Below are positions 8,796-35,602 of a DNA stretch of 37,234 nt, in pieces. The notes beneath the pieces were generated by a model, which was not told where the DNA came from, made no database searches, and saw only the letters and a list, made by a program, of their open reading frames with translations. The position numbers and the translations under genes are program-made. This DNA comes from a virus. The stretch lies in IMG/VR virus record IMGVR_UViG_3300049007_000007, positions 1-37,234 of that record. One strand, 5' to 3'. Within the stretch, counting starts at the first letter, position 1. Each line of letters opens with the position of its first letter.

Positions 8796-9203
8796 TCAGG
8801 CCCACGTAGGGACGGTGCCGTCGGCGAGCGACGCCGGCGCCGACCAGGTGAGCGAGCCGTCGTCGCCGCGGGTGAGCGAGTAGTCCGTGACGACCATCTC
8901 GGTCGCGAGGGTCTGGCCCGAGATCACGTTCGTGAACGTCCGGGCGACCGACGTCGACGGCACGGTGCGCAGCACCGTGTGGGCCTGGTTGGCGGCGTCG
9001 TTGAAGACGCCGTTCAGCGTGTAGCTGCAGTCCGCCAGCAGGAGCAGGCGCTCCATGGCCGACTTGTCGATGCCCGTCGTGTTCTGCACCTCGCGGGGCG
9101 TCGCGAACTCGAAGTTCGTGATGTCGTTGCGGATGTCCCGGGGCGTGCCACCGCTGTCGTCCACCGACAGCGAGGTCCACCCGAGACCGGTCTCCTTGGC
9201 CAT
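8796..9203 (-). CDS. Tail tube-like protein, copy 2 (135 aa)
   Basis: A 135-residue protein with a GAGGAAGG ribosome-binding site about 10 bases before its ATG. It is a shorter paralogue of the 249-aa gene at 9726-10475. Both begin MAK(E/Q)TGLG, share the motif TGIDK(S/E)AMERL near residue 43 and carry RGDDGSLT followed by an aromatic residue near the end. The position directly upstream of the tail chaperones is that of the major tail (tube) protein. One of the two paralogues is probably the tube subunit. The other may be a decorated tube form or a tube initiator or terminator. Which is which cannot be told from sequence. Confidence 0.75.
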   Translation of the reverse strand: MAKETGLGWTSLSVDDSGGTPRDIRNDITNFEFATPREVQNTTGIDKSAMERLLLLADCSYTLNGVFNDAANQAHTVLRTVPSTSVARTFTNVISGQTLATEMVVTDYSLTRGDDGSLTWSAPASLADGTVPTWA

Positions 9204-9228: not shown

Positions 9229-9726
9229 TCAGCCGCGCTGGTGCGCGGTAGCGAGCTGGTCCTGGTGCTCGGCGAAGTCCTCGAGCCAGTCGGCCGCCCG
9301 CGCGTGCTGGCGGGGCGCGGCGCCGCGGGGGTTGCCGCGCCAGTCGCCCTCGCGCACGACGTAGAGCTCGGGCCGCTCGAGCGGCACCTGGTGCGTGGCG
9401 AAGCACTCCTGGCCGGGCGGGAACGTGAACACGGTCATCGGGCCCTCGCGGGCCTCGATGTAGCGGCGGGGCCCGTTGACGGCGTGGTGGCCGCCGGCCA
9501 GCTCGAGGGAGACAGACCGGCACTCGGAGCGGATGTAGGCGGCCTGGCGCATGCCGAGGTCCGTGCGCTCATCGATGACCGTGCGCCATCCCTCGCGGCA
9601 CTGCTCGCAGTCGACCTCGGCGCAGGCGGCCGGCCGGAAGTGCGTCGAGAGCGGGGAGGCGACCTGGTACGTCTTGTAGGCCTCGGCTGGCCCGACGGGC
9701 TGGATGCGGTTGAGCGGGCGCTGCAT
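9229..9726 (-). CDS. Conserved phage protein with cysteine cluster between tail tube paralogues (165 aa)
   Basis: ATG at 9726 overlaps the stop of the upstream tail protein (TGATG). The 165-residue product carries a possible metal-binding cluster Cys35-x4-Cys40-x2-Cys43, with Cys69 and Cys108 further on. The middle (residues 83-110) reads as a beta sheet with FTFPPGQ. The C-terminal 35 residues are Arg/Ala/His-rich. Proteins with this layout recur among actinophage tail genes, but no function is known to me. It separates the two tail-tube-like genes. It could be a structural connector or an assembly factor. Confidence 0.65.
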   Translation of the reverse strand: MQRPLNRIQPVGPAEAYKTYQVASPLSTHFRPAACAEVDCEQCREGWRTVIDERTDLGMRQAAYIRSECRSVSLELAGGHHAVNGPRRYIEAREGPMTVFTFPPGQECFATHQVPLERPELYVVREGDWRGNPRGAAPRQHARAADWLEDFAEHQDQLATAHQRG

Positions 9727-10475
9727 CAGAAGGTCACCTCCGTGAGGTTGCGGACCACGACGACGACGAAGTCGATCGACGTGTAGGTGCCGGTGATCGA
9801 GGCCCGGATCCACTCCTTGACGTTCTCGGTGCGGCCGGTCTCGATGCGGTGGGCGCCGACGTCGGTGATGGTCGGGAACGCGGCCCCGGTGATCGGGGCG
9901 TAGGCGTCGCCGGCGCCGTCATCGTCGCTGTCCTCGAGCACGATGTCGGCGTCGGTCCCGTCGAACGCCAGCACCTGCAGGTACGCCTGGAGGCCGAAGT
10001 CGGTGGCGGCGCCGGCGCCGTCGTCGAAGCCATCGAGGTCCTCGGCGCCGGTGGAGGTGTGGATGCCGGCCGTGAGGTTGTGGCCCCACTCGATGCCGAA
10101 CCCGTTGGCCTGGGCGTTGACCGTGAAGGTCAGCGAGCCGTCGTCGCCGCGGGAGGGGTCGTAGCCGATCTGCTTCCCGAGGAGCGAGGCGGCGTGCCCG
10201 CCGAGCGCGACGCCGCGCAGGTACGTCAGGATCCGGTCCGCGACAGGCAGCGCGGCCAGCACGGGGTGCGCCTGGTCGGTGGCGGGGTTGAAGTAGGCGG
10301 TGAACTCCATCTGGCCGTCGCGGAGGCCGCCCAGGCGCTCCATGGCCTCCTTGTCGATGCCGGTGACGGGCAGCGGTTCGTTGCCGCCGCCGATCCCGCC
10401 GAGCGAGCCGATGTCGCCTGAGAGGTTGAAGCCGTCGACGTAGAGGCGGTCGCCGAGCCCGGTCTGCTTGGCCAT
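9726..10475 (-). CDS. Major tail (tube) protein candidate, long paralogue (249 aa)
   Basis: This 249-residue protein has GGAAGG about 9 bases before the ATG, and the leader GGAAGGAC is shared with its paralogue at 8796-9203. Shared landmarks are the N-terminus MAKQTGLG, TGIDKEAMERL (about 38-48), a QAHPVL segment and RGDDGSLTF (about 109-117). Residues from about 118 onward form an extra beta-rich domain (LQVLAFDGTDADIVLEDSDDDG... to RNLTEVTF) absent from the short copy. It probably forms the tail tube that conducts DNA, with the C-terminal domain exposed on the tail surface. The location downstream of the connector genes agrees. Confidence 0.78.
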   Translation of the reverse strand: MAKQTGLGDRLYVDGFNLSGDIGSLGGIGGGNEPLPVTGIDKEAMERLGGLRDGQMEFTAYFNPATDQAHPVLAALPVADRILTYLRGVALGGHAASLLGKQIGYDPSRGDDGSLTFTVNAQANGFGIEWGHNLTAGIHTSTGAEDLDGFDDGAGAATDFGLQAYLQVLAFDGTDADIVLEDSDDDGAGDAYAPITGAAFPTITDVGAHRIETGRTENVKEWIRASITGTYTSIDFVVVVVRNLTEVTF

Positions 10476-11239: not shown

Positions 11240-11625
11240 CAGCTCATCCTCCGAAGGAAGCGCTGCAGGACCCGCTCGGCTATCGCGGGAACCAGCTGCT
11301 CGAGGCGGTGGCGGGCCCGACGGAACGCGAAGTAGCCCTTGAACCGGGTCGTCTTGTTGCGGGAGCCGACGCCCTCGAGCCAGGGGCCGTAGACGATGCC
11401 CCGGTCGTGGACCACGACGTCGGGCGCGGCACGCTCGACGACGAGCTGGGTCTCGTAGTACGGCGTCGGGTGGCGGATGCTGGCGTCGAGGATCGTGTGG
11501 ACCTCCGCGAGGCCCTGCTTGCCGACCTCGAGCTGGACGGCGTCGACGTAGTCGCGGGCGGCGCGGTCCGCGCGGCCGTCGAAGAGGGGGCCGCTGCGGT
11601 CGACGTCGACGTGGATCGTGGGCAT
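11239..11625 (-). CDS. HK97 gp10-like / minor capsid-tail joining protein (128 aa)
   Basis: The 128-residue protein starts at ATG 11625, coupled by TGATG to the upstream head-tail connector. It shows the features of the gp10-like family: a short N-terminal strand, a long helix (ADRAARDYVDAVQLEVGK), a beta segment (TPYYETQLVVERAAPDVVVHD), and the conserved YGPWLEGVGSRNKTTRFKGY block (79-98) followed by a basic C-terminal helix. Family members are head-tail joining or tail completion proteins. Its neighbours are the connector upstream and a tail terminator candidate downstream. Confidence 0.8.
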   Translation of the reverse strand: MPTIHVDVDRSGPLFDGRADRAARDYVDAVQLEVGKQGLAEVHTILDASIRHPTPYYETQLVVERAAPDVVVHDRGIVYGPWLEGVGSRNKTTRFKGYFAFRRARHRLEQLVPAIAERVLQRFLRRMS

Positions 11626-12686
11626 CAGACAGCGCCGATCCGGGCCTTGCGGCCGTAGTCCGTGTAGGCGCGCCTGCGGAGGTCGGCGAGGGCGGCGCCT
11701 CGGGCCTCGCGTTCGTTGTCGCCGGCGCCGACCGTGCGCGCGTAGCCGGACTGCTCCTGCTCGACCTGGGCGATCGCCTCCGCGATGCACAGCGCGCCGA
11801 TGACAGACGGCGGCCGCCAGGCGACCACCGGCGCGGCGTCGCCGTGCGCCGCCGCGGTCGTGCCGAGCACGCCCCGCTCGACGGTGAGCCGGCGGGGCAC
11901 GTAGATGTCGGCGCCGGCCGTGTGAGCGGCCAGCACACTGCCATCCCACGCGCGCTTCACCACCAGCTGGTCGCCGGCGACGTCGACGACCAGCATGCGC
12001 TCGGCGTCGATCAGGACGACCTCGCCGGCGTGGAACGCCGAGCCGGTCGTGACGGCGACCAGCACGCTGTTCGCCTGGGCCGTGAGCCCCGGGGCTCCGA
12101 GGTTCTGCCCCGAGTCCAGCCAGGTGCGCCCGGCGACGACCAGGCGCTCGGTGCCGACGCGCAGCAGCGACCCGACCCCGACGAGGGCCCCGTCGGTGAC
12201 GTCGACCGTGGTCGTGGAGGCGTCGGCGACCGCAGCCTCGAGGGCGCCGGCGGGAACCTCGTCGAGGCGGCACCCCGCCCACAGGCCGGTGATGGAGATG
12301 TCGCGCTGGTGGGACCCGCCGCCGCCGAACGACGCTGGCCCGTCGAGGTCGAGCTGGACCTGCGTGTAGGGCGCCTCGTCGAGGTCGTCGGACCGGCGGA
12401 GGAAGTAGTGGGCGGGGTCGATCACCGTGCCGCCCGACGACAGCGTGGTGATCGAGATCAGCTCGTTGCTGTCGAGCCAGAGCCGCCACGGGCGGGCGTA
12501 CTGCTGGTTCGGCCAGTCGAACCGTCGGGTGGCGACCTCGGGGTAGAAGCGGCGGTGGAGCGCACCCTCGAGGTCGCGGGACGCGGTGGCGATGGCACGG
12601 TCGACCTGCGCGTCGTCACGCGCGGTCAGCTTGGAGTCGAGGGCGCCCTTGACGTCCTCGCGTGTCGCGTACCAGATGTTCGCCAC
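11625..12686 (-). CDS. Head-to-tail connector/adaptor protein (353 aa)
   Basis: The GTG at 12686 is used as the start (MANIWYATREDVKGAL). The N-terminal 50 residues (ATREDVKGALD...AIATASRDLEGALHRRF) match the helical pattern of phage head-tail adaptors of the gp6/gp15 type, which add to the portal ring. The middle (residues 75-260) is beta-rich and unusually long for an adaptor. The C-terminus (PPSVIGALCIAEAIAQVEQEQSGYART...ALADLRRRAYTDYG, 290-347) returns to helices. The whole resembles the long connector proteins of actinophages. An AAGG 12 bases upstream is a weak ribosome site. Confidence 0.75.
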   Translation of the reverse strand: MANIWYATREDVKGALDSKLTARDDAQVDRAIATASRDLEGALHRRFYPEVATRRFDWPNQQYARPWRLWLDSNELISITTLSSGGTVIDPAHYFLRRSDDLDEAPYTQVQLDLDGPASFGGGGSHQRDISITGLWAGCRLDEVPAGALEAAVADASTTTVDVTDGALVGVGSLLRVGTERLVVAGRTWLDSGQNLGAPGLTAQANSVLVAVTTGSAFHAGEVVLIDAERMLVVDVAGDQLVVKRAWDGSVLAAHTAGADIYVPRRLTVERGVLGTTAAAHGDAAPVVAWRPPSVIGALCIAEAIAQVEQEQSGYARTVGAGDNEREARGAALADLRRRAYTDYGRKARIGAV

Positions 12687-12753
12687 GTCCCGTGCCTTGC
12701 TTTCTGGCCAGCCACCAGCGGTGGCAGGATCGGCGCCGGGATCGTCCCGCCCC

Positions 12754-12766
12754 GGTGGGGCGCGCT
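12754..12766 (-). repeat. Intergenic 13-base repeat, copy B
   Basis: The second perfect copy of AGCGCGCCCCACC (coding strand). It overlaps the TAG stop of the 58-aa gene and opens the 78-base gap before the connector gene. Here it forms the best hairpin of the three copies: CGCCCC, loop ACC, GGGGCG. It is preceded by a GC-rich tract. No U-run follows. Confidence 0.6.
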
Positions 12767-12941
12767 ACCCGCCCGAGGACCCGTCGGGCCGCCAGCCGTC
12801 GAACGGGCAGAACAGGACGCCGTCCGGCCCGGCCTCGAGCGGCTCGCCGTCGTTCGGGCACGCCGCCGGCGGGCTGGCGCGCTCGGCCCGGGCCTCCTCG
12901 GCCGCCTCACGGGCGATCGACAGCAGCTGCTCCCATGCCAT
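12765..12941 (-). CDS. Small conserved phage protein, MAWEQLLSI family (58 aa)
   Basis: A 58-residue protein from ATG 12941 to TAG 12765. It begins MAWEQLLSIAREAAEEARAE, a helix, and carries two CPxDG knuckles, CPNDGEPL at 28-35 and CPFDGW at 45-50. These form a minimal zinc-ribbon-like repeat. Small proteins with the same helix plus double CPxDG layout are widespread in actinophages just before the head-tail connector. The function is unknown. Apparent upstream extension of this frame is the shadow of the hydrolase gene. Confidence 0.72.
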   Translation of the reverse strand: MAWEQLLSIAREAAEEARAERASPPAACPNDGEPLEAGPDGVLFCPFDGWRPDGSSGG

Positions 12942-12943
12942 CG

Positions 12944-13681
12944 CTACGTGCGGTCCTGTGCGTGGGCGAGCAGCCAGCGGGCCTGGGCGGCGGCGTCGAT
13001 CGCCGGGTAGATCTGCGCGGTGTCGTGGCTGCGGGCGCCGAGCGACACGGCCTGCATGCCGGTCGCGGCGACGAACGGGGCGATGTCCTCGCTGTAGGGG
13101 ACGAGGGGGTCGTTGGACGAGTAGTAGATCCGGCAGCGGCCGGCGATCGGGACGATCCGGGCGGTGTTCGCCATCGGGTCCCGGTCGGCGGCGTTGGCCG
13201 CCCAGCCGCCCGATCCGTCGTACGCGTCGTCCATATCGTCCGCGAGGACCGATGACCGGTCGTAGACGTGCTGCAGCGCCACGCCAGGGACGCGCAGCAC
13301 GACACCGCCGACACGGGTCGGGTTGCGCCAGCACCAATTGAGAGCCCCGGCGCCGTTCATGGAGTCGCCGATCCACGAGATGCGCCGGACGTCTGCGGCC
13401 CAGCGCTCGACCGCCCAGGCGATGGCGTCGTCGACCGCCTCGAGGAAGTCGTCGTTGCACCAGGCGAGCCCGGCGAAGTCGACGGCGACGACCACGAACC
13501 CGAGGCTCGCGAGATAGTCGAGGTCGCGGCGGAACGCGGGCGGGCTGTAGACCCATGCGTCGTCGCCGCCGCCGTGGCCGACCAGGACGAGCGGCCCGCC
13601 GGCCCGGTAGCCGTTGGCGGTGATGACGAGGTGCTTCTCGTCCGCCCGGTAGGCACCAACGCCGAGGCTGCGGTGGCTCAC
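12944..13681 (-). CDS. Alpha/beta hydrolase in the head-connector operon (245 aa)
   Basis: The GTG at 13681 overlaps the stop of the preceding structural gene (GTGA). The 245-residue protein is a complete alpha/beta hydrolase. It has an oxyanion HGGG-type motif (GHGGG, residues 35-39), a nucleophile elbow GDSMNG with Ser107, a candidate acid Asp191 (SSNDPLVP) and a candidate His219 (ARSHDTAQ). There is no signal peptide or membrane anchor. It is likely an esterase or depolymerase. Embedding among capsid and connector genes suggests it may be packaged in the virion, perhaps acting on acylated host surface polymers. A cytoplasmic role is also possible, and the substrate is unknown. Confidence 0.82.
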   Translation of the reverse strand: MSHRSLGVGAYRADEKHLVITANGYRAGGPLVLVGHGGGDDAWVYSPPAFRRDLDYLASLGFVVVAVDFAGLAWCNDDFLEAVDDAIAWAVERWAADVRRISWIGDSMNGAGALNWCWRNPTRVGGVVLRVPGVALQHVYDRSSVLADDMDDAYDGSGGWAANAADRDPMANTARIVPIAGRCRIYYSSNDPLVPYSEDIAPFVAATGMQAVSLGARSHDTAQIYPAIDAAAQARWLLAHAQDRT

Positions 13682-14241
13682 CCGACCTCCTGCGCGTACA
13701 GGCCCGTGGGGTCCGATGCGGCGCCGTTCGGGGTGATGTTGCCCGTGACCCCGAACGCGAACAGCTGGTAGTCGCCGTGCTGGCCAGCGGGGATGCGGGC
13801 GAACGGCTCGCACGACACGGCGGACCCGGCGCCGATCCCCTGCTCCTGGGACCGGCCGACCGCCTGCGTGAGCGTGGTCGAGCCGACCGCGGCGATCGCC
13901 AGGCCGCGGAGGCTGTTGGCCGCCGACTGGATGATCGTCGAGTGGCCCCGCAGGTACACGGTCCCGGACCCAGGCGGGATCGTCACCACCGTGCCGCTGA
14001 GCGCGTGCAGCGTGAAGGCGAACGCATCGCCGGCGAACGGGCCGTGCGTGGTCTCGACCTCAGCGGAGTCGATCTCGTTCGAGAGCGCCGGGTGCTGGCG
14101 GATCGCGCCGCTGATGTGGACGTCGCCGGCGACGTGGAGATCGCCGTCGATCGCCAGGTCGCTGTCGGTCAGCGTGTGGGTCGTGTGGGGCGGCGGGAGG
14201 TCCCGGTTGGTGGCGCCGCTGTGCTTGGTGGTCTTGGGCAC
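13678..14241 (-). CDS. Putative virion structural/fibre-like protein (187 aa)
   Basis: The start is placed at GTG 14241 (MPKTTKHSG), where protein-like sequence begins; further upstream the frame is Arg/Pro-rich shadow. The motif LAIDGDLHVAGDVHISGAI (about 28-46) is a short beta-helix-like repeat of the type seen in fibre and spike proteins. A compact beta-rich domain of about 130 residues follows (SGTVVTIPPGSGTVYLRGHS, TQAVGRSQEQGIG, DYQLFAFGVTGNI). It sits between a zinc-ribbon head protein and the hydrolase. A capsid decoration or head fibre protein is the best guess, and it may carry the hydrolase or share its promoter. Confidence 0.6.
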   Translation of the reverse strand: MPKTTKHSGATNRDLPPPHTTHTLTDSDLAIDGDLHVAGDVHISGAIRQHPALSNEIDSAEVETTHGPFAGDAFAFTLHALSGTVVTIPPGSGTVYLRGHSTIIQSAANSLRGLAIAAVGSTTLTQAVGRSQEQGIGAGSAVSCEPFARIPAGQHGDYQLFAFGVTGNITPNGAASDPTGLYAQEVG

Positions 14242-14252
14242 CGGCGGACCCG

Positions 14253-14885
14253 TCAGCCCGTCTCGGCGGAGGCCTCCGCAGGCACCGTGTCGTCGCCCTC
14301 GCCGGTGCCGGCCTGGGCCACCTCGACGAGGGTGCCGTCGTCGCCGACGACGTGTGTGCCGGCGTCGAGGGCGTCCTGCAGGACACGGAGCTCCCGCTTC
14401 GTCATGCCCTCGAGCGCGGCCCGGACCAGGCCCTGGTGGACCAGGTAGTCGACCCACAGCTCGTTGCGGGCGTTGGCCGACGGGCGGGACGGAGCGCCGT
14501 CCCCCGCCCCGCCCTCGGCCATGCCCCCCGGCACGGGCTCGTTGGGCTCGACGGTGAGCGTGCCGCCGTCGACCGGTGTCATCGGCTCACCGGCCCCGGG
14601 CTCACGCTCGACGTCGGCTGCCTCGAGGAGCAAGTCGGCGCCGGGCTCCGCCTCGAGCGGCAGCTCGACCACCGGCTGGTCGTCGGCCGGCGGGCGGAGC
14701 GTGGCGCTCGAGGGCCCGCCGTGCCTCGTGATCTTCGGGGACATCGGGTCCTCCTGGTCCTCGGGACGTGAGCCGAGCTCGTGGAACGTGGTGCCGTGGC
14801 AGCGGGGGCACCGGAACAGCCCGACGGCGTACCGCGTGCGGCACGGCTCGCCGTCGTAGGTGCCCTCGCAGACCCAGAGCGCCAT
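14253..14885 (-). CDS. Head-module protein with N-terminal zinc ribbon (210 aa)
   Basis: A 210-residue protein from ATG 14885. The first 30 residues carry four cysteines (Cys6, Cys15, CPRC at 26-29) that form a zinc ribbon. A long disordered acidic Pro/Glu/Gly region (45-135) follows, and then a helical segment (NELWVDYLVHQGLVRAALEGMTKRELRVLQDAL, 141-173). The final part is acidic. This composition suits a head assembly or scaffold-like adaptor rather than an enzyme. Its place among capsid accessory genes supports a structural or assembly role. Confidence 0.62.
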   Translation of the reverse strand: MALWVCEGTYDGEPCRTRYAVGLFRCPRCHGTTFHELGSRPEDQEDPMSPKITRHGGPSSATLRPPADDQPVVELPLEAEPGADLLLEAADVEREPGAGEPMTPVDGGTLTVEPNEPVPGGMAEGGAGDGAPSRPSANARNELWVDYLVHQGLVRAALEGMTKRELRVLQDALDAGTHVVGDDGTLVEVAQAGTGEGDDTVPAEASAETG

Positions 14886-14887
14886 GG

Positions 14888-15361
14888 TCAGGCCGCCACG
14901 ACCTCGGCGCCGTCGTCGAGCGGGACGTACACGAGCGACCACTTGGCGGCGCCGGTGTTGCTGGCGGCGCAGTTGAGGTCGATCGAGCCGACGTTGGCGA
15001 CGAAGGGCCGGGTGGGCCACACGGTGGCGCCGGCGTTGGCGCCGATCATGGCGTCGCCGAACACGCCCGTGATGCCGTAGAGGCACCCGACCTCGTCACC
15101 AGTGATGTCGAGCGTCGCGCAGACGTCGACCGTGGTCCCGGTCGTGGGGTTGGCCTGCAGCTTGGTCGCGTTGGCCTGGGCCTGGACGGCGGTCGTGACC
15201 TCGCCCACGATCCCGATCACCAGGACGCGGCCGCCCGTGACGGTGAAGAGGGCCTCGGCGGCGGTCTGCGGGAGCGTGTCGGTCGGGCGATCGACCCGGA
15301 TGCCCTGTGTGAGCTCCCGGGCGACGGGGTGGAAGCCCTGGGGCTGGAGCATGACGGTCAT
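14888..15361 (-). CDS. Putative capsid decoration / head protein (157 aa)
   Basis: The ATG at 15361 has AGGAGG about 10 bases upstream, a strong ribosome site that suggests high expression. A second in-frame ATG is residue 4. The 157-residue product is beta-rich with an Ala/Thr/Val/Gly composition (residues 33-157), as in head decoration proteins. The segment TVTGGRVLVIGIVGEVTTAV (40-59) resembles the opening of a beta-barrel. Three cysteines lack a metal-binding pattern. It lies two genes downstream of the major capsid protein, and a capsid accessory role is inferred. Confidence 0.6.
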   Translation of the reverse strand: MTVMLQPQGFHPVARELTQGIRVDRPTDTLPQTAAEALFTVTGGRVLVIGIVGEVTTAVQAQANATKLQANPTTGTTVDVCATLDITGDEVGCLYGITGVFGDAMIGANAGATVWPTRPFVANVGSIDLNCAASNTGAAKWSLVYVPLDDGAEVVAA

Positions 15362-15375
15362 GGCGTGTGGGCCTC

Positions 15376-15891
15376 CTACGCCTGCGGGTTGGCGAGGTTG
15401 GCGGGCGCCCGCTGCACCTCGAGGTCGCGCAGCAGGTACAGCACGGCGCCGAGCTGCGGGTTCGCGGCCGTGACGGCGACGTCGAGCGAGATCCACTCGA
15501 ACCCGTCGGCGAGCGAGGTGGCCTCGACCTCGATCACGAGGATCTGCTGCTCCTCGGCCGAGGTGCCGGCGCCGCCAGGGTCCGCGACCTCGGACGCGGC
15601 CGCCTGCGTGAACCGCGACCACGTCTCGTCCCCGTCGAGGCTGGCCTCGCGCTTGAGGTAGTAGTGGTCGATCACGTCGAGGTCGGCCGACGTGCCGCCG
15701 CTGGCGGCGGTGTGCTGGCGCAGGTCGAACGTCGGGTCGGCGCCGGCCGTGCCGGCGCCCTTGAACACGACAATCGTGCAGCCGCCGGCGTTCTTGAGGT
15801 GGACCCGGTTGCCGGTCGCACCGTTGGCGGTGTCGAGGTCGACCGGTGCGACGCCGGCGACGACATCGATCAGCCGTCCGAGAGCTTCCAT
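15376..15891 (-). CDS. Putative capsid accessory/structural protein (171 aa)
   Basis: The ATG at 15891 follows a strong AAGGAGG 5 bases upstream. It is the first gene after the major capsid protein, the usual place of a decoration protein. The 171 residues are beta-rich (ATGNRVHLKNAGGCTIVVFKGAG at about 25-47; ILVIEVEATSLADGFEWISLDV at 116-137) without membrane segments. The pattern of alternating strands separated by Asp/Gly turns fits a virion protein that binds the capsid surface or vertices. The gene has its own strong ribosome site beyond a hairpin after the capsid gene, which suggests independent control of stoichiometry. Confidence 0.62.
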   Translation of the reverse strand: MEALGRLIDVVAGVAPVDLDTANGATGNRVHLKNAGGCTIVVFKGAGTAGADPTFDLRQHTAASGGTSADLDVIDHYYLKREASLDGDETWSRFTQAAASEVADPGGAGTSAEEQQILVIEVEATSLADGFEWISLDVAVTAANPQLGAVLYLLRDLEVQRAPANLANPQA

Positions 15892-15933
15892 GGTTGCCTC
15901 CTTGGGCGGGGCGTGACTGCCACCCCTGGGTTG

Positions 15934-15965
15934 GCCCGGCCGGGGGCGTTACTGCCCGGCCGGGC
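15934..15965 (-). terminator. Strong hairpin downstream of the major capsid gene
   Basis: Two perfect 11-base arms, GCCCGGCCGGG and CCCGGCCGGGC, flank a 10-base loop, beginning 8 bases after the capsid stop codon. No U-tract follows. It may attenuate transcription or protect the 3' end of the capsid message. Confidence 0.5.
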
Positions 15966-15973
15966 TGGCGGGA

Positions 15974-17467
15974 TCAGGCGCGCTCGTCCAGCTGGACGAA
16001 CGGGGAGAGGGCGGGGCCGCCGTTCTGCGGCGTGATGGCCGACTGCAGCCAGGGCTTGCCGTCGACCCGCTGGATGATCCGGAACGACGTCTGGTCGTTC
16101 GCGAACCGGTAGTGCGGGGACGACATGGCGGACATGACCTGGCGGTCGCCGACCAGGTAGAAGCCGAAGTCGACGAAGCTCAGGTCGCCCAGGTCGCCGA
16201 GCACGCCGGGCGCCTTCTCCGTGAAGATCACAGGGCGGCCGAGGATCGTCATGGGCGGGCCCTGGACGCCGTTGTTGAGCCAGATCGCGGAGCCGCCCGT
16301 GCCCACGCTGAGCGCCATCGTGGCGAGCTCGGGGAACGTGTCGATGCTCGCGACCCACACGGCCCGGCCGAGGGAGCTGGGCAGCATGCGGGCGAACATC
16401 TTCACGATGTTCTCCCAGACGATGCTGTCGGCCGGCTGCCCAGCCTCCTTCGCGACCTGGACCGTGGCGTCGTTCCCGGCCGCCAGCGCGCCGAGCGGCT
16501 CGCCGACGCCGGAGCCCTTGAGGAACGCCAGGTCCTCGTAGAACGTCAGCGCCTCGGGGAACTTCTGGTCGATGAACGCCTGGAAGCTCATCAGGCTGTC
16601 GGAGATGAGCTCGTTGGGCACATGCGCCATCGCCGTGAGCTTCTTGGCGTCGAGCACGACCCGACCGAAGGTGGCCTGCGACTCCGTGAGTGCCGCGGCC
16701 TCCTCCGTCCAGTAGGCGACGATGCCGCCGAAGACGCTGTCGACGTTGCTCGTCGAGTCGATCGACGGGAACGGGACCCGCAGGGTCTCCATCGGCACGA
16801 CGAACGCCCGGGAGCGCACGACGGCCGTCTCGAGGGCGACGGACAGCATCTCGGAGCGCAGCGTCTCCGGGATCAGGAAGCCGCCCTCGCTCGGGACCGT
16901 CGACGAGAACGCGTTGCGGACCCGGTGCATCTTCGCCTGCAGGGAGGCGTCCCGGTTGGTGTTGTGCCAGATCGACTTGAAGTACTCGGCCGAGTTGGCG
17001 AACTCCTTGTCGATCTGGGCGCCCATGGCCTGGGGGTTGTGCAGCCCGTGGCGGGGGCTGCCGCCCACGCCGGGGGTGGCGGCCGCGGGGTTGAAGTTGA
17101 TGGGCGCCACGCCCTCCTCGCGGTGGTCCTTGAGCCACGCGGCGAGCACGCGCTGGGTCTCGTCGCGGACCTGGGTGGCGATCTCCTGGTCCTGGGCGAG
17201 CACGTTCTTGGCGTACGACCGGACGAAGTCGCCGAACCCGTCCTTCTGGGCGAACAGGGCGCGCATCTTCTTGGTGTCGGCCAGCATCTCCTCGAGCCCG
17301 GCCGGGCTGTCGGGGATCGTGATCCGCTCGGGCTCGGCGGTCGCGGTACCGGCCCCGCCGGCGGCGGCGTTGTTGAACGTCCGACCGACCTGCCAGGGCG
17401 CGAAGCCCATGTCGGTGAGCTTGGCCCGGACCCCCGGGCTGAGGGTGCTGGTACGGGTCTTGCTCAT
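15974..17467 (-). CDS. Major capsid protein, HK97 fold (497 aa)
   Basis: The ATG at 17467 overlaps the protease stop (ATGA) and has GGAGG 7 bases upstream. Residues 50-190 are helical and charged, the delta/scaffold region cleaved in HK97-type capsids. The mature fold begins near residue 190 with the family signature VPSEGGFLIPETLRSEML (191-208). Further on are PFPSIDS and the GGIVAYWTEEAAALTESQATF segment (248-268), typical of the HK97 E-loop and spine helix. The C-terminal half contains the A-domain and a conserved GRPVIFTEKAP. The protein forms the icosahedral shell. Its position after a ClpP-like protease fits. Confidence 0.95.
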   Translation of the reverse strand: MSKTRTSTLSPGVRAKLTDMGFAPWQVGRTFNNAAAGGAGTATAEPERITIPDSPAGLEEMLADTKKMRALFAQKDGFGDFVRSYAKNVLAQDQEIATQVRDETQRVLAAWLKDHREEGVAPINFNPAAATPGVGGSPRHGLHNPQAMGAQIDKEFANSAEYFKSIWHNTNRDASLQAKMHRVRNAFSSTVPSEGGFLIPETLRSEMLSVALETAVVRSRAFVVPMETLRVPFPSIDSTSNVDSVFGGIVAYWTEEAAALTESQATFGRVVLDAKKLTAMAHVPNELISDSLMSFQAFIDQKFPEALTFYEDLAFLKGSGVGEPLGALAAGNDATVQVAKEAGQPADSIVWENIVKMFARMLPSSLGRAVWVASIDTFPELATMALSVGTGGSAIWLNNGVQGPPMTILGRPVIFTEKAPGVLGDLGDLSFVDFGFYLVGDRQVMSAMSSPHYRFANDQTSFRIIQRVDGKPWLQSAITPQNGGPALSPFVQLDERA

Positions 17468-23295: not shown

Positions 23296-23574
23296 TCAGA
23301 CCGGTGGCTGCACCTCGACCAGGTGGATCGGCAGGCCGCCCCACGTGGACAGCCAGAGCGTGCCACCGCGGGCGAGCTGGGCCAGCTCGATCTCGTCGAG
23401 CTGCCATGCGACGCGCAGGACCGGGGGCCCGCCGCGGCCCTCGGGGAAGGTGACGACCGCTGGGCACGGGACGACGTCGGGGCCCTCGGCCGGGCCGCCG
23501 ACCGTGACGACGCCGGCCGGGTCGGCGTCGGCCCAGAAGGCGAGCTGGGTGGGCGTGGGCTCGACGGGCCTCAT
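23296..23574 (-). CDS. Small hypothetical protein coupled to HIT gene (92 aa)
   Basis: The ATG at 23574 overlaps the stop of the HIT-domain gene (ATGA), so the two are likely translated together. The 92 residues have an acidic N-terminal half and a beta/alpha pattern (VLRVAWQLDEIELAQLARGGTLWLSTWGGLPIHLVEV, 52-88). No metal site or membrane segment is seen. The tight coupling may link it functionally to the HIT enzyme, but nothing in the sequence shows how. Function unknown. Confidence 0.65.
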   Translation of the reverse strand: MRPVEPTPTQLAFWADADPAGVVTVGGPAEGPDVVPCPAVVTFPEGRGGPPVLRVAWQLDEIELAQLARGGTLWLSTWGGLPIHLVEVQPPV

Positions 23575-23951
23575 GTCGCTCCCAGGAGCGCGGCCCAGGG
23601 CCACCGGCCGAGGCCGTCCTTGGGATTGCGAGGGATGAGGTGGACGTGCCAATGCATCACGGTCTGCGTCGCGGCCTCGCCGGCGCTGGTGATGACGTTC
23701 ACGCCGGCGGGCCCCAGGCGCCGGGCCATGATCCGGGTGACCGCGGCCACGCCGTCGGTAGTGATGGGGTCGGCCGTCAGGAACGACTCGGTGTGCACCC
23801 GGGGCACGATCAGGGTGTGGCCCTCGACGAACGGGTTGAGCGGCTGGAACGCGATCACGCTCGCGCCATCGAACGACAGGCCGCCGTCAGGCACCGCGTC
23901 ACCGATGGCGTAGGCGCAGAACGGGCACATGCGGTCGTCGGTGGTCGTCAC
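23571..23951 (-). CDS. HIT-family nucleotide hydrolase (126 aa)
   Basis: The GTG at 23951 overlaps the stop of the upstream membrane protein gene (GTGA). The 126-residue protein is a complete histidine-triad domain. It has an N-terminal CPFC pair (9-12), the nucleotide-binding region VIAFQPLNPFVEGHTLIVPRVHTESF (32-57) and the triad HWHVHLIPR with His100, His102 and His104, of which the middle histidine is the nucleophile. HIT enzymes hydrolyse or transfer nucleoside monophosphates from AMP-lysine, dinucleoside polyphosphates or related compounds. It is rare in phages and unexplained between terminase and portal genes; it could adjust nucleotide signals after infection. Confidence 0.88.
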   Translation of the reverse strand: MTTTDDRMCPFCAYAIGDAVPDGGLSFDGASVIAFQPLNPFVEGHTLIVPRVHTESFLTADPITTDGVAAVTRIMARRLGPAGVNVITSAGEAATQTVMHWHVHLIPRNPKDGLGRWPWAALLGAT

Positions 23952-24205
23952 CCGGGGGCCTCGCTCGGGTCGGTGAGGCGCTCGAGGACCAGGCCGAAGG
24001 CGCCGACGGCGATCAGGCCCCAGCCTCGGCCGAGCATGTCCCACACGCCGGCCGACATTGCGGCGAACGACCCGAGCGACATCGTGGCCGTGCGGGTCCG
24101 CCGGCCCCAGGCGGCCGCCCGCTGGCCCGCGGTCCGTGCCCGCTCGCGGACCTGGGGAGCGGTGTCGACAGCGAGCGCCCACGTGAGACGGAGCAGGTTC
24201 CTCAC
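23948..24205 (-). CDS. Small membrane protein (85 aa)
   Basis: The GTG at 24205 overlaps the stop of the preceding gene (GTGA), and the stop overlaps the HIT gene by 4 bases. Residues 44-76 (LGSFAAMSAGVWDMLGRGWGLIAVGAFGLVL) form one or two membrane segments, preceded by a basic stretch (QVRERARTAGQRAAAWGRRTR) that would face the cytoplasm. The protein ends in a short acidic tail. The coupling to its neighbours suggests a co-expressed group of four or five genes after the terminase. Function unknown. Confidence 0.65.
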   Translation of the reverse strand: MRNLLRLTWALAVDTAPQVRERARTAGQRAAAWGRRTRTATMSLGSFAAMSAGVWDMLGRGWGLIAVGAFGLVLERLTDPSEAPG

Positions 24206-30993: not shown

Positions 30994-31342
30994 GATCCCG
31001 CCCGAGGTTGCGGAGGTCGAACCCGTCGGCTGACCGGCCCTGCTTGTTGCCGGTCAGAGCGAGGTTGTAGATCTCCTCGATCCTGCGCGTCGCCTTGGCC
31101 ATTGCGGCCTCCTGGGACTCCTTGATCTTCGGAACGAGGTCGTCCATATGGCGACGCACCTCGTCGCTGATCTCCGCTCGGACGACGTCAGCCACCGCTG
31201 CCCTGGCGGCTTCGAGGTCACTCGCGAGGGCCTTGCGTTCGCGCCGGACCTCGCGCAGCTCGGAGCGGACCTCGCCCAGGACCTGCTTGGCTTCGGCGCT
31301 GGCGGCGGCGAGCTGGTCGACGAACGTCTCAAGCTCAGCCAC
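30986..31342 (-). CDS. Coiled-coil protein (118 aa)
   Basis: The GTG at 31342 overlaps the upstream DUF5131 stop by 8 bases (GTGGCTGA). Residues 2-95 are a long charged helix with heptad spacing (LETFVDQLAAASAEAKQVLGEVRSELREVRRERKALASDLEAARAAVADVV), likely a parallel coiled coil. The C-terminus is Gly/Arg-rich. There is no membrane segment or enzyme motif. It could act as an adaptor or oligomerisation partner for its neighbours, with which it is translationally coupled. Confidence 0.68.
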   Translation of the reverse strand: MAELETFVDQLAAASAEAKQVLGEVRSELREVRRERKALASDLEAARAAVADVVRAEISDEVRRHMDDLVPKIKESQEAAMAKATRRIEEIYNLALTGNKQGRSADGFDLRNLGRDRG

Positions 31343-32156
31343 GGGTCACCGCCTCGGGCATCTGGTCCCAGGTGCGCCCGTCGATGTGCCGGCCGTTGGC
31401 CTTCGGCGTCCGGCCGCCCCACTGCTTGAAGAAGAACGGGACACCGGCGTCGACGCAGCGGTCGCGGATCTCGTACACCCACACCGGGTCGACTGGGCGT
31501 GCGCCCGGCCCGGACTCACCGCCGGCGATCACCCAGTCGATGCCGGTGAGGTCGAGCGACGGGAGCGGCCCGAGGAGGGGCTCGAGGCTGAGGAACCGGA
31601 CGGCGGCCGGCGGAGCCCGGAGGTGGTCGGCCCGGAAGGTGTACCGGTCGGACTCGATCGACGTGCCCAGCCAGACGTTCGGGAGCGGCCAGGTCTTCGA
31701 CTCGTTCCAGCGAAGCTGGTGGTCGCGCCAGATCGGGCCGCCGTAGGCCGACCCCTCGTTGGCTGCCCACTCGGCGAGCACGTCGGCCATGCGCTGCGGG
31801 CGCTTCGTGAGCACCTGGAAGGTGTGCTGGCCGGCGGCCGCCATCGTCGCCCAGACCGAGCCGATGAACTCGATCGGCACGTCGCGATGGAACAGGTCCG
31901 ACATGCTGTTGACGAACACGCGGGCCGGCTTCCGCCAGTGCAGCGGGGCGTCCAGCGTGTCCGGGTGGACGCTCAGCCCGAAGCCGGGGCCGCTGGTGCG
32001 GGGGTCGCCGTCGGCCTGGTACTTGGCCTGGCCCATGGCCTTGAGCCGGCGGGCGAGGGTGAGGGCGTAGCAGTTGTCGCAGCCGGGCGAGACCCGGTCG
32101 CAGCCGGTGGTCGGGTTCCACACCCGGTCGGTCCACTCGATCGAGGTCTCAGCCAT
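31335..32156 (-). CDS. DUF5131 / phage Gp37-Gp68 family protein (273 aa)
   Basis: ATG 32156 lies 8 bases inside the ASCH gene (ATGGCTGA). The N-terminus carries the signature IEWTDRVWNPTTGCDRVSPGCDNCYA (6-31) with Cys19, Cys26 and Cys29. Later motifs are FVNSMSDLFH, QVLTKRPQRM, NVWLGTSIES, RFLSLEPLLG, WVIAGGESGPGARP and FFFKQWGG, which mark this family along its whole length. The fold is predicted to be a radical-SAM-like barrel with the three cysteines as a possible cluster site. The reaction is not known. It is paired with an ASCH protein, and a nucleic-acid or nucleoside modification role is possible. Confidence 0.9.
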   Translation of the reverse strand: MAETSIEWTDRVWNPTTGCDRVSPGCDNCYALTLARRLKAMGQAKYQADGDPRTSGPGFGLSVHPDTLDAPLHWRKPARVFVNSMSDLFHRDVPIEFIGSVWATMAAAGQHTFQVLTKRPQRMADVLAEWAANEGSAYGGPIWRDHQLRWNESKTWPLPNVWLGTSIESDRYTFRADHLRAPPAAVRFLSLEPLLGPLPSLDLTGIDWVIAGGESGPGARPVDPVWVYEIRDRCVDAGVPFFFKQWGGRTPKANGRHIDGRTWDQMPEAVTRG

Positions 32157-34480: not shown

Positions 34481-34638
34481 CAGCCGGCCTCGCTGTGGTT
34501 GAGGAGGCGGGCGGCGCGTTCGGCGTCGGCCTGCTTGGTGAACGTGGCGATGTCGGCCCAGGGGCCGTCGCCGGCGCAGCGCATCAGCGCGGTCTCGCCG
34601 CCGGCGACGATCGTGCGGGTCGCGTACCGGTCAGGCAT
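34480..34638 (-). CDS. Small hypothetical protein (52 aa)
   Basis: ATG 34638 overlaps the stop of the clamp/FtsK fusion by 8 bases (ATGCCTGA). The 52 residues have a beta/alpha pattern ([47 protein letters not shown]). Small proteins with TF...[11 protein letters not shown] ends occur in many phages and plasmids, where they probably bind other proteins. No metal site or membrane segment is seen. The stop overlaps the J-domain start (TGATG). Confidence 0.65.
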
Positions 34639-35602
34639 CGGTGAGCCCCTCATCCGCCAGGAGATGCTCGAGGTCGTCGGCGGTGGCGAGCACGGCCCGG
34701 GCCTTGGTCCCGTCGGCCGGGCCGACGACGCCGCGGGCCTCAAGCTCGTCCATGAGGCGGGCCGCCCGGGCGTATCCGACGCGGAGCTTGCGCTGCAGCA
34801 TGGAGGTCGAGCCGAGCTGCGAGGCGACGATGAGGCGGGCGGCCTGGTCGATCAGGCGGCCGTCGCCGCTCGTGGCGTCGGCGTCGTCGCCGTCGTCGGT
34901 GGGCTCCGGCCGGGGCTCCATCCGGTCGAAGTCCCAGCGGCAGGGCATGACGATGCCCTCGACGTGGGGGCGGGAGTGCTGCACGTCGACGTGCGCGGCG
35001 CCGATCTCGCCGCCGAGGCGGAGCGCGAGGACGGCGAAGTCGTGCCACTGGTGGACCTTGCAGAGCCGGCCGAAGATCTCGGGGCTGACCGCGACCCGAC
35101 CGGTGTCCGCTCCGCGGAAGCCGCCAAGGACCGAGCGCCAGGCGGGCCAGGGCCCGTCGTAGGACTGGAGGGTGAGGCGCTCGACGTCGGGCATCTCCAT
35201 GATGACGCTGTGGGCTTCGAGGCCGACGAGCTGGCCGGGGGCGGCGTTGCCGAGGACATTGAGGCGGAGGGTGATGTTGATCGGCTCGGCGCCGGTCTTC
35301 TCGCCTTCACCGGCGAGCTTGAGCGCGTGCTTGAGGAAGCCCTTGGCGCGGCCGTGGGGGTCCATCGCTGTGCCCGTGGAGATCGGCACCTCGTCCCAGC
35401 CAGGCGCCTCGGTGTCGGCGTGCTCGTGGTCCGTCACCCAGGCGGTGAGGAGCATGTAGCTGTCGGTGGCGACGAGGCGGACGCCGCCGGTGTGCGACTC
35501 GATGTGGACGGTTTTGGAGAGCGCGGGGTTCTCCTTGTCGCCGGCCGAGGCGAGGGCGACGGCGAGCCAGCCGCGGGCGAGGTCGCGGGCGTCGAAGATC
35601 AC
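34631..35602 (-). CDS. Sliding-clamp (DnaN-like) protein fused to an FtsK-gamma domain (323 aa)
   Basis: The GTG at 35602 overlaps the lipoprotein stop (GTGA). Residues 1-225 resemble the beta clamp of DNA polymerase [28 protein letters not shown] (32-56), [11 protein letters not shown] (170-180) and [13 protein letters not shown] (213-225). After an acidic linker (230-247) comes an FtsK-gamma winged helix (248-306), [46 protein letters not shown]. In FtsK this domain binds the 8-base KOPS sequence. Free FtsK-gamma proteins are common in actinophages, but a clamp fused to it is unusual. It may tether the clamp to oriented DNA sites or to the replisome. Confidence 0.82.

Follow-up and report, generated by a model that had tools for sequence, protein, structure and literature searches.

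Gene organization of the hydrolase locus

In this work, the whole 37,234-nt stretch of the IMG/VR virus record IMGVR_UViG_3300049007_000007 was analysed, which is referred to here as the window. Its late genes lie on the minus strand in the order terminase, portal, protease, capsid, decoration-like protein, protein B, gene C, fibre-like gene, hydrolase, MAWEQ gene, adaptor and tail genes. The major capsid protein (15974-17467; phrog_10, 1.1e-45) is followed by a conserved, decoration-like small protein (15376-15891), conserved protein B (14888-15361) and gene C (14253-14885), which carries a zinc ribbon and a PKITRHGGPSS motif and matches a head-tail connector PHROG. The fibre-like gene (13678-14241, 187 aa) and the alpha/beta hydrolase gene (12944-13681, 245 aa) come next, and the small MAWEQ zinc-ribbon protein (12765-12941, 58 aa) and the head-tail adaptor (11625-12686; phrog_442, 3e-6) complete this part of the region, all of them on the minus strand. 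The hydrolase starts with GTG at 13681 and stops with TAG at 12946-12944. These coordinates agree with the earlier note, which left the strand unstated. The same note described the hydrolase as stop-start coupled on both sides. Upstream, the coupling holds in the form of a 4-bp overlap (GTGA) with the fibre-like gene, but downstream the MAWEQ gene begins after a 2-nt gap. A sigma-70 type scan of 11500-16200 found no promoter- or terminator-like site, a result of little weight for actinophage promoters. The nearest endolysin-like ORF (648-1640), named by inspection and with no Pfam hit, is 11.3 kb from the hydrolase, in line with the 11 kb proposed before for the distance to the lysis cassette. 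The G+C content of 72%, together with the relatedness to phages of Streptomyces and Gordonia, suggests that the host of this soil phage is an actinobacterium.

Catalytic residues and family of the hydrolase

Ser107 (TCC, 13363-13361), Asp191 (GAC, 13111-13109) and His219 (CAC, 13027-13025) were identical in all seven members of the hydrolase family in the alignment. In the AF2 model (pLDDT 85.4, pTM 0.86), Ser107 forms the elbow between strand 97-106 and helix 107-119, Asp191 lies past strand 183-187, His219 lies past strand 210-213, and a helical cap covers approximately residues 136-182. The nucleophile elbow, acid and histidine follow the canonical order on an alpha/beta fold, which places the protein in the alpha/beta hydrolase superfamily and bears out the intact triad reported previously. 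The Pfam match to Hydrolase_4 (1.9e-5) was just under the curated cut-off, and PHROG 789 (esterase/lipase) was matched at 4e-5. The PDB sequence search returned BphD-type, Hydrolase_4-type and monoglyceride-lipase chains. The top sequence matches were metabolic C-C hydrolases (BphD, HsaD) and general esterases, all far under the NCBIfam cut-offs. The GHGGG sequence, taken before as an oxyanion motif, is indeed present at residues 35-39, but as a motif it is not conserved, since Gly37 alone is kept in seven homologues and the equivalent segments of relatives read AHGLL, CPGLT, AHGYG and AEGYT. It is therefore no family signature, and the substrate class is not readable from it. The protein does not fall in the HGGG (hormone-sensitive-lipase type) esterase class. 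Because other contigs encode homologues that are 45-47% identical and retain the triad, the ORF is more than a chance reading frame, and judging from its sequence the product is probably an ester-cutting enzyme.

The fibre-like partner

The fibre-like protein consists of a variable N-terminus, which opens with the motif MPKTTKHSGATN, and a conserved beta-rich C-terminal domain. It matched nothing in Pfam or PHROG and had no convincing counterpart in the PDB. The AF2 model obtained for it (pLDDT 43) was too poor for interpretation, so that its nature as a fibre is inferred. The conserved domain found matches among viral contigs in L044 and L045 only, and none in the phage collection. The opening motif matches that of the resident gene C and of genes lying at the same place in relatives, i.e., in the interval between protein B and the adaptor, referred to below as the slot. 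Across 1.39 million residues of six-frame translation, the PKxTxxGGxT-type motif had 14 matches. Twelve are located in slot genes, and two of these twelve belong to the window, one in gene C and one at the fibre N-terminus.

Homologues of the hydrolase in other phages

A scan of viral contigs with the window hydrolase as a single protein gave no match. Two-sequence and larger alignments as queries retrieved the hydrolases of L044, L045 and L049, and the sole match in a scan of genome contigs was a weak one in a planctomycete. L044 and L045 are two further IMG/VR phages that are otherwise dissimilar to the window. Their hydrolases are 45-47% identical to that of the window, and in each of them a homologue of the fibre-like gene precedes the hydrolase with the same 4-bp overlap. 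In these homologues, the C-terminal ~135 residues are conserved and the N-terminus is swapped. Beyond this pair, the proteins of the window are matched poorly or not at all in the two contigs, with the portal of L044 at 23% and the tape measure of L045 at 48% over 214 residues. As far as can be read from the sequences, the fibre-like gene and the hydrolase are a portable linked pair that occurs in three phages. The L044 pair has connector genes on one side and a tail gene on the other, and its hydrolase carries a fused DUF4185-like domain (Pfam 3.6e-6, under the curated cut-off). In L045, the pair is located after the tail genes and directly before an amidase endolysin. The small gene upstream of the L045 pair matches a PHROG tail protein and is related to the equivalently placed gene in L044.

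A search across the phage collection linked the L049 hydrolase with those of the Gordonia Kroosvirus phages (E=5e-8). The Kroosvirus esterase (e.g., MoontowerMania gp24) belongs to the same family, with ~31% identity and the triad shared with the window, and its gene is likewise located between capsid and head-tail adaptor genes. The order in Kroosvirus is capsid, two genes, the annotated major tail protein, gp23, the esterase gp24, the deacetylase gp25 and the adaptor, and in L049 it is a capsid gene, a 243-aa gene, the hydrolase and the adaptor. Both gp23 and gp25, which flank the esterase, have a common N-terminal domain of ~40 aa. Kroosvirus differs from the window by the added deacetylase and by the fibre-like gene, for which no homologue was detected there. 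Sequence comparison found no homology between this gene and those preceding the hydrolase in L049 and Kroosvirus, so all five lineages have the hydrolase in common, and three of them the fibre-like partner. We found no functional test of gp24 in the literature.

A variable slot between capsid and adaptor genes

Among the IMG/VR capsid relatives of the window, 19 contain the complete interval between gene B and the adaptor gene. The length of this slot varies from a few hundred bases up to several kilobases, and none of the 19 contains the window hydrolase there. The slot is either nearly empty or holds beta-helix, adhesin-like or other proteins, such as a beta-helix protein in L028 that matches a tail-spike PHROG and a pectate-lyase-like protein (weak match) in L022. 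In L008, a further relative beyond the 19, it contains a protein with Mtd_N and GDSL. The closest isolate by capsid protein, Streptomyces phage Dagobah (55%), has only small proteins in the slot, and the paper describing it was not found to report mass spectrometry of virions. It is probable that the slot in relatives holds other receptor-binding or surface-degrading proteins. Its cargo is not exclusively structural, as L006 also carries a DNA-methyltransferase-like gene there (by inspection). In four relatives (L006:13492-15240, L011:15019-17676, L013:5237-9208 and L028:16435-17079), slot proteins with lengths between 214 and 1323 aa end in the MAWEQ zinc ribbon, suggesting from sequence a shared docking or scaffold role for this domain. 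Two related-looking slot proteins of ~205 aa (L030:3190-3816 and L035:2330-2941) have a His/Lys-rich N-terminus and no Pfam hit. A PK[IT]TxHGGxTN-type motif recurs in slot genes of L004, L007-L010, L013, L017, L021, L022 and L030.

Proposed function of the hydrolase

We hypothesize that the hydrolase is a portable esterase module that is attached to the virion and acts on surface polymers as the phage enters its host, an interpretation that we consider fairly probable. The recurrence of this pair, or of its slot, in further phages makes it most likely that the enzyme is carried on the virus particle. The fibre-like carrier and the hydrolase would constitute a two-gene cartridge in which the hydrolase, with its start overlapping the carrier stop, is the catalytic half. 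The N-terminus of the carrier would be matched to the resident phage and anchor the carrier to the virion, the carrier would hold the hydrolase, and the PK[IT]TxHGGxTN-type motif is possibly the anchor signal. On host contact, the enzyme would cleave acetyl or acyl ester groups on actinobacterial surface polymers, and their removal could ease adsorption or access to the receptor. The deacetylase neighbour in Kroosvirus and the DUF4185-like fusion in L044 hint at a carbohydrate target. Several observations weigh against this interpretation, namely the missing matches and poor model of the fibre-like protein, the unrelated genes ahead of the hydrolase in L049 and Kroosvirus, the L045 pair immediately before an endolysin, and the metabolic C-C hydrolases and general esterases as top sequence matches. 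The earlier note proposed a head- or neck-attached depolymerase. The gene position in the window favours the head or neck, whereas the L045 pair, after tail genes and beside an endolysin, leaves room for the tail. The term depolymerase is loose, because such an esterase would more likely strip ester groups than cut the polymer backbone.

The hydrolase could also be a moron-type cargo that alters host metabolism or signalling in the cytoplasm after infection and merely occupies a tolerant intergenic slot. The methyltransferase-like gene in the slot of L006 and the cytosolic enzymes among the nearest solved relatives of the hydrolase are consistent with this. We regard it as unlikely, since the hydrolase start overlaps the fibre-like gene in three phages and the hydrolase recurs in capsid-to-adaptor or connector-to-tail intervals in four lineages. 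Moreover, the sigma-70 type scan revealed neither a promoter-like nor a terminator-like site for it, although this is weak evidence for an actinophage. Less probable still is a displaced lysis enzyme of the lysin B type, which would cut esters between lipid and cell wall at the end of infection. Lysin B is often distant from the lysis cassette in Gordonia phages (PMC5559632), and the L045 hydrolase immediately before the endolysin keeps this explanation alive for that phage. However, Kroosvirus encodes the separate annotated lysin B gp45 in its lysis region in addition to the homologue gp24, and linkage to lysis genes was observed in only one of five lineages (L045), the distance in the window being over 11 kb. 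The hhalign comparison with gp45 gave a probability of 0.9% and E 0.064 (single-sequence template). The window hydrolase is similar to lysin B, the mycolylarabinogalactan esterase, in being a serine hydrolase of actinophages, but it has no significant profile similarity to it, and neither a profile relation nor lysis-gene linkage in the window identifies it as a lysin B. The conserved fibre partner and the same slot elsewhere also give good support to the previous suggestion that it is not a lysis enzyme. The cutinase Pfam was absent among the results up to E 10, so the protein was not assigned to this family; bacterial cutinase/PET-hydrolase chains were marginal profile matches (E about 0.009). 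Finally, action on a phage structural protein during virion maturation, which the location in the late structural operon beside capsid and connector genes might suggest, is very improbable, because the hydrolase is missing from all relatives with the same capsid and connector genes and is thus not needed for assembly, and the L044 copy bears the DUF4185-like domain.

The job proposed for the virion-attached pair, ester-group removal from surface polysaccharide, resembles that of the esterase tailspikes of G7C, Moo19 and B2, whose esterase activity was measured (PMC11654681). Those proteins are tailspikes, whereas in the window the enzyme has the alpha/beta-hydrolase fold, its putative carrier is encoded by a gene of its own, and both genes lie between those for capsid and neck. 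For the streptococcal 5093 group, phages of Gram-positive bacteria, receptor-binding proteins that adopt an esterase fold have been described (PMC9863714). There, an esterase-like domain is likewise tied to the receptor-binding apparatus, but it is in one polypeptide at the tail tip and not in a gene pair of the capsid-neck region. The head fibres of phi29, P68 and 7-7-1 aid host contact, and the passages considered in these sources give them no enzymatic role (PMC9863714, PMC12796354). They are head-borne, as the window fibre might be.

What is new here is the genomic context, i.e., the pair travelling together and the hypervariable slot. A bolder and more tentative idea, which we think rather doubtful, is that the pair forms a head or neck fibre with enzymatic activity. 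The portable carrier-plus-esterase cartridge would be displayed on the capsid or neck through a swappable N-terminal anchor, and its genes would occupy a slot that many actinophages dedicate to receptor binding, between the capsid and adaptor genes. The variable slot beside the capsid genes of these soil phages, probably actinobacterial, seems to accommodate modules for binding or degrading surfaces, and annotation focused on tails would overlook it. If this is right, such phages would have enzymes for host range and adsorption that have gone unnoticed. Since Kroosvirus isolates exist, the proposed virion-attached esterase is directly testable.

Other genes of the window

The tail-protein-like genes 8796-9203 and 9726-10475 are apparently paralogous, and they share the same two Dagobah genes as matches. 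A HIT-domain protein (23571-24182; Pfam 2.7e-12) is encoded between the terminase and portal genes. Furthermore, a DUF5131 protein is located at 31335-32156 (Pfam 3.6e-97), and the protein 34631-35602 contains an FtsK gamma domain (Pfam 5.7e-25).
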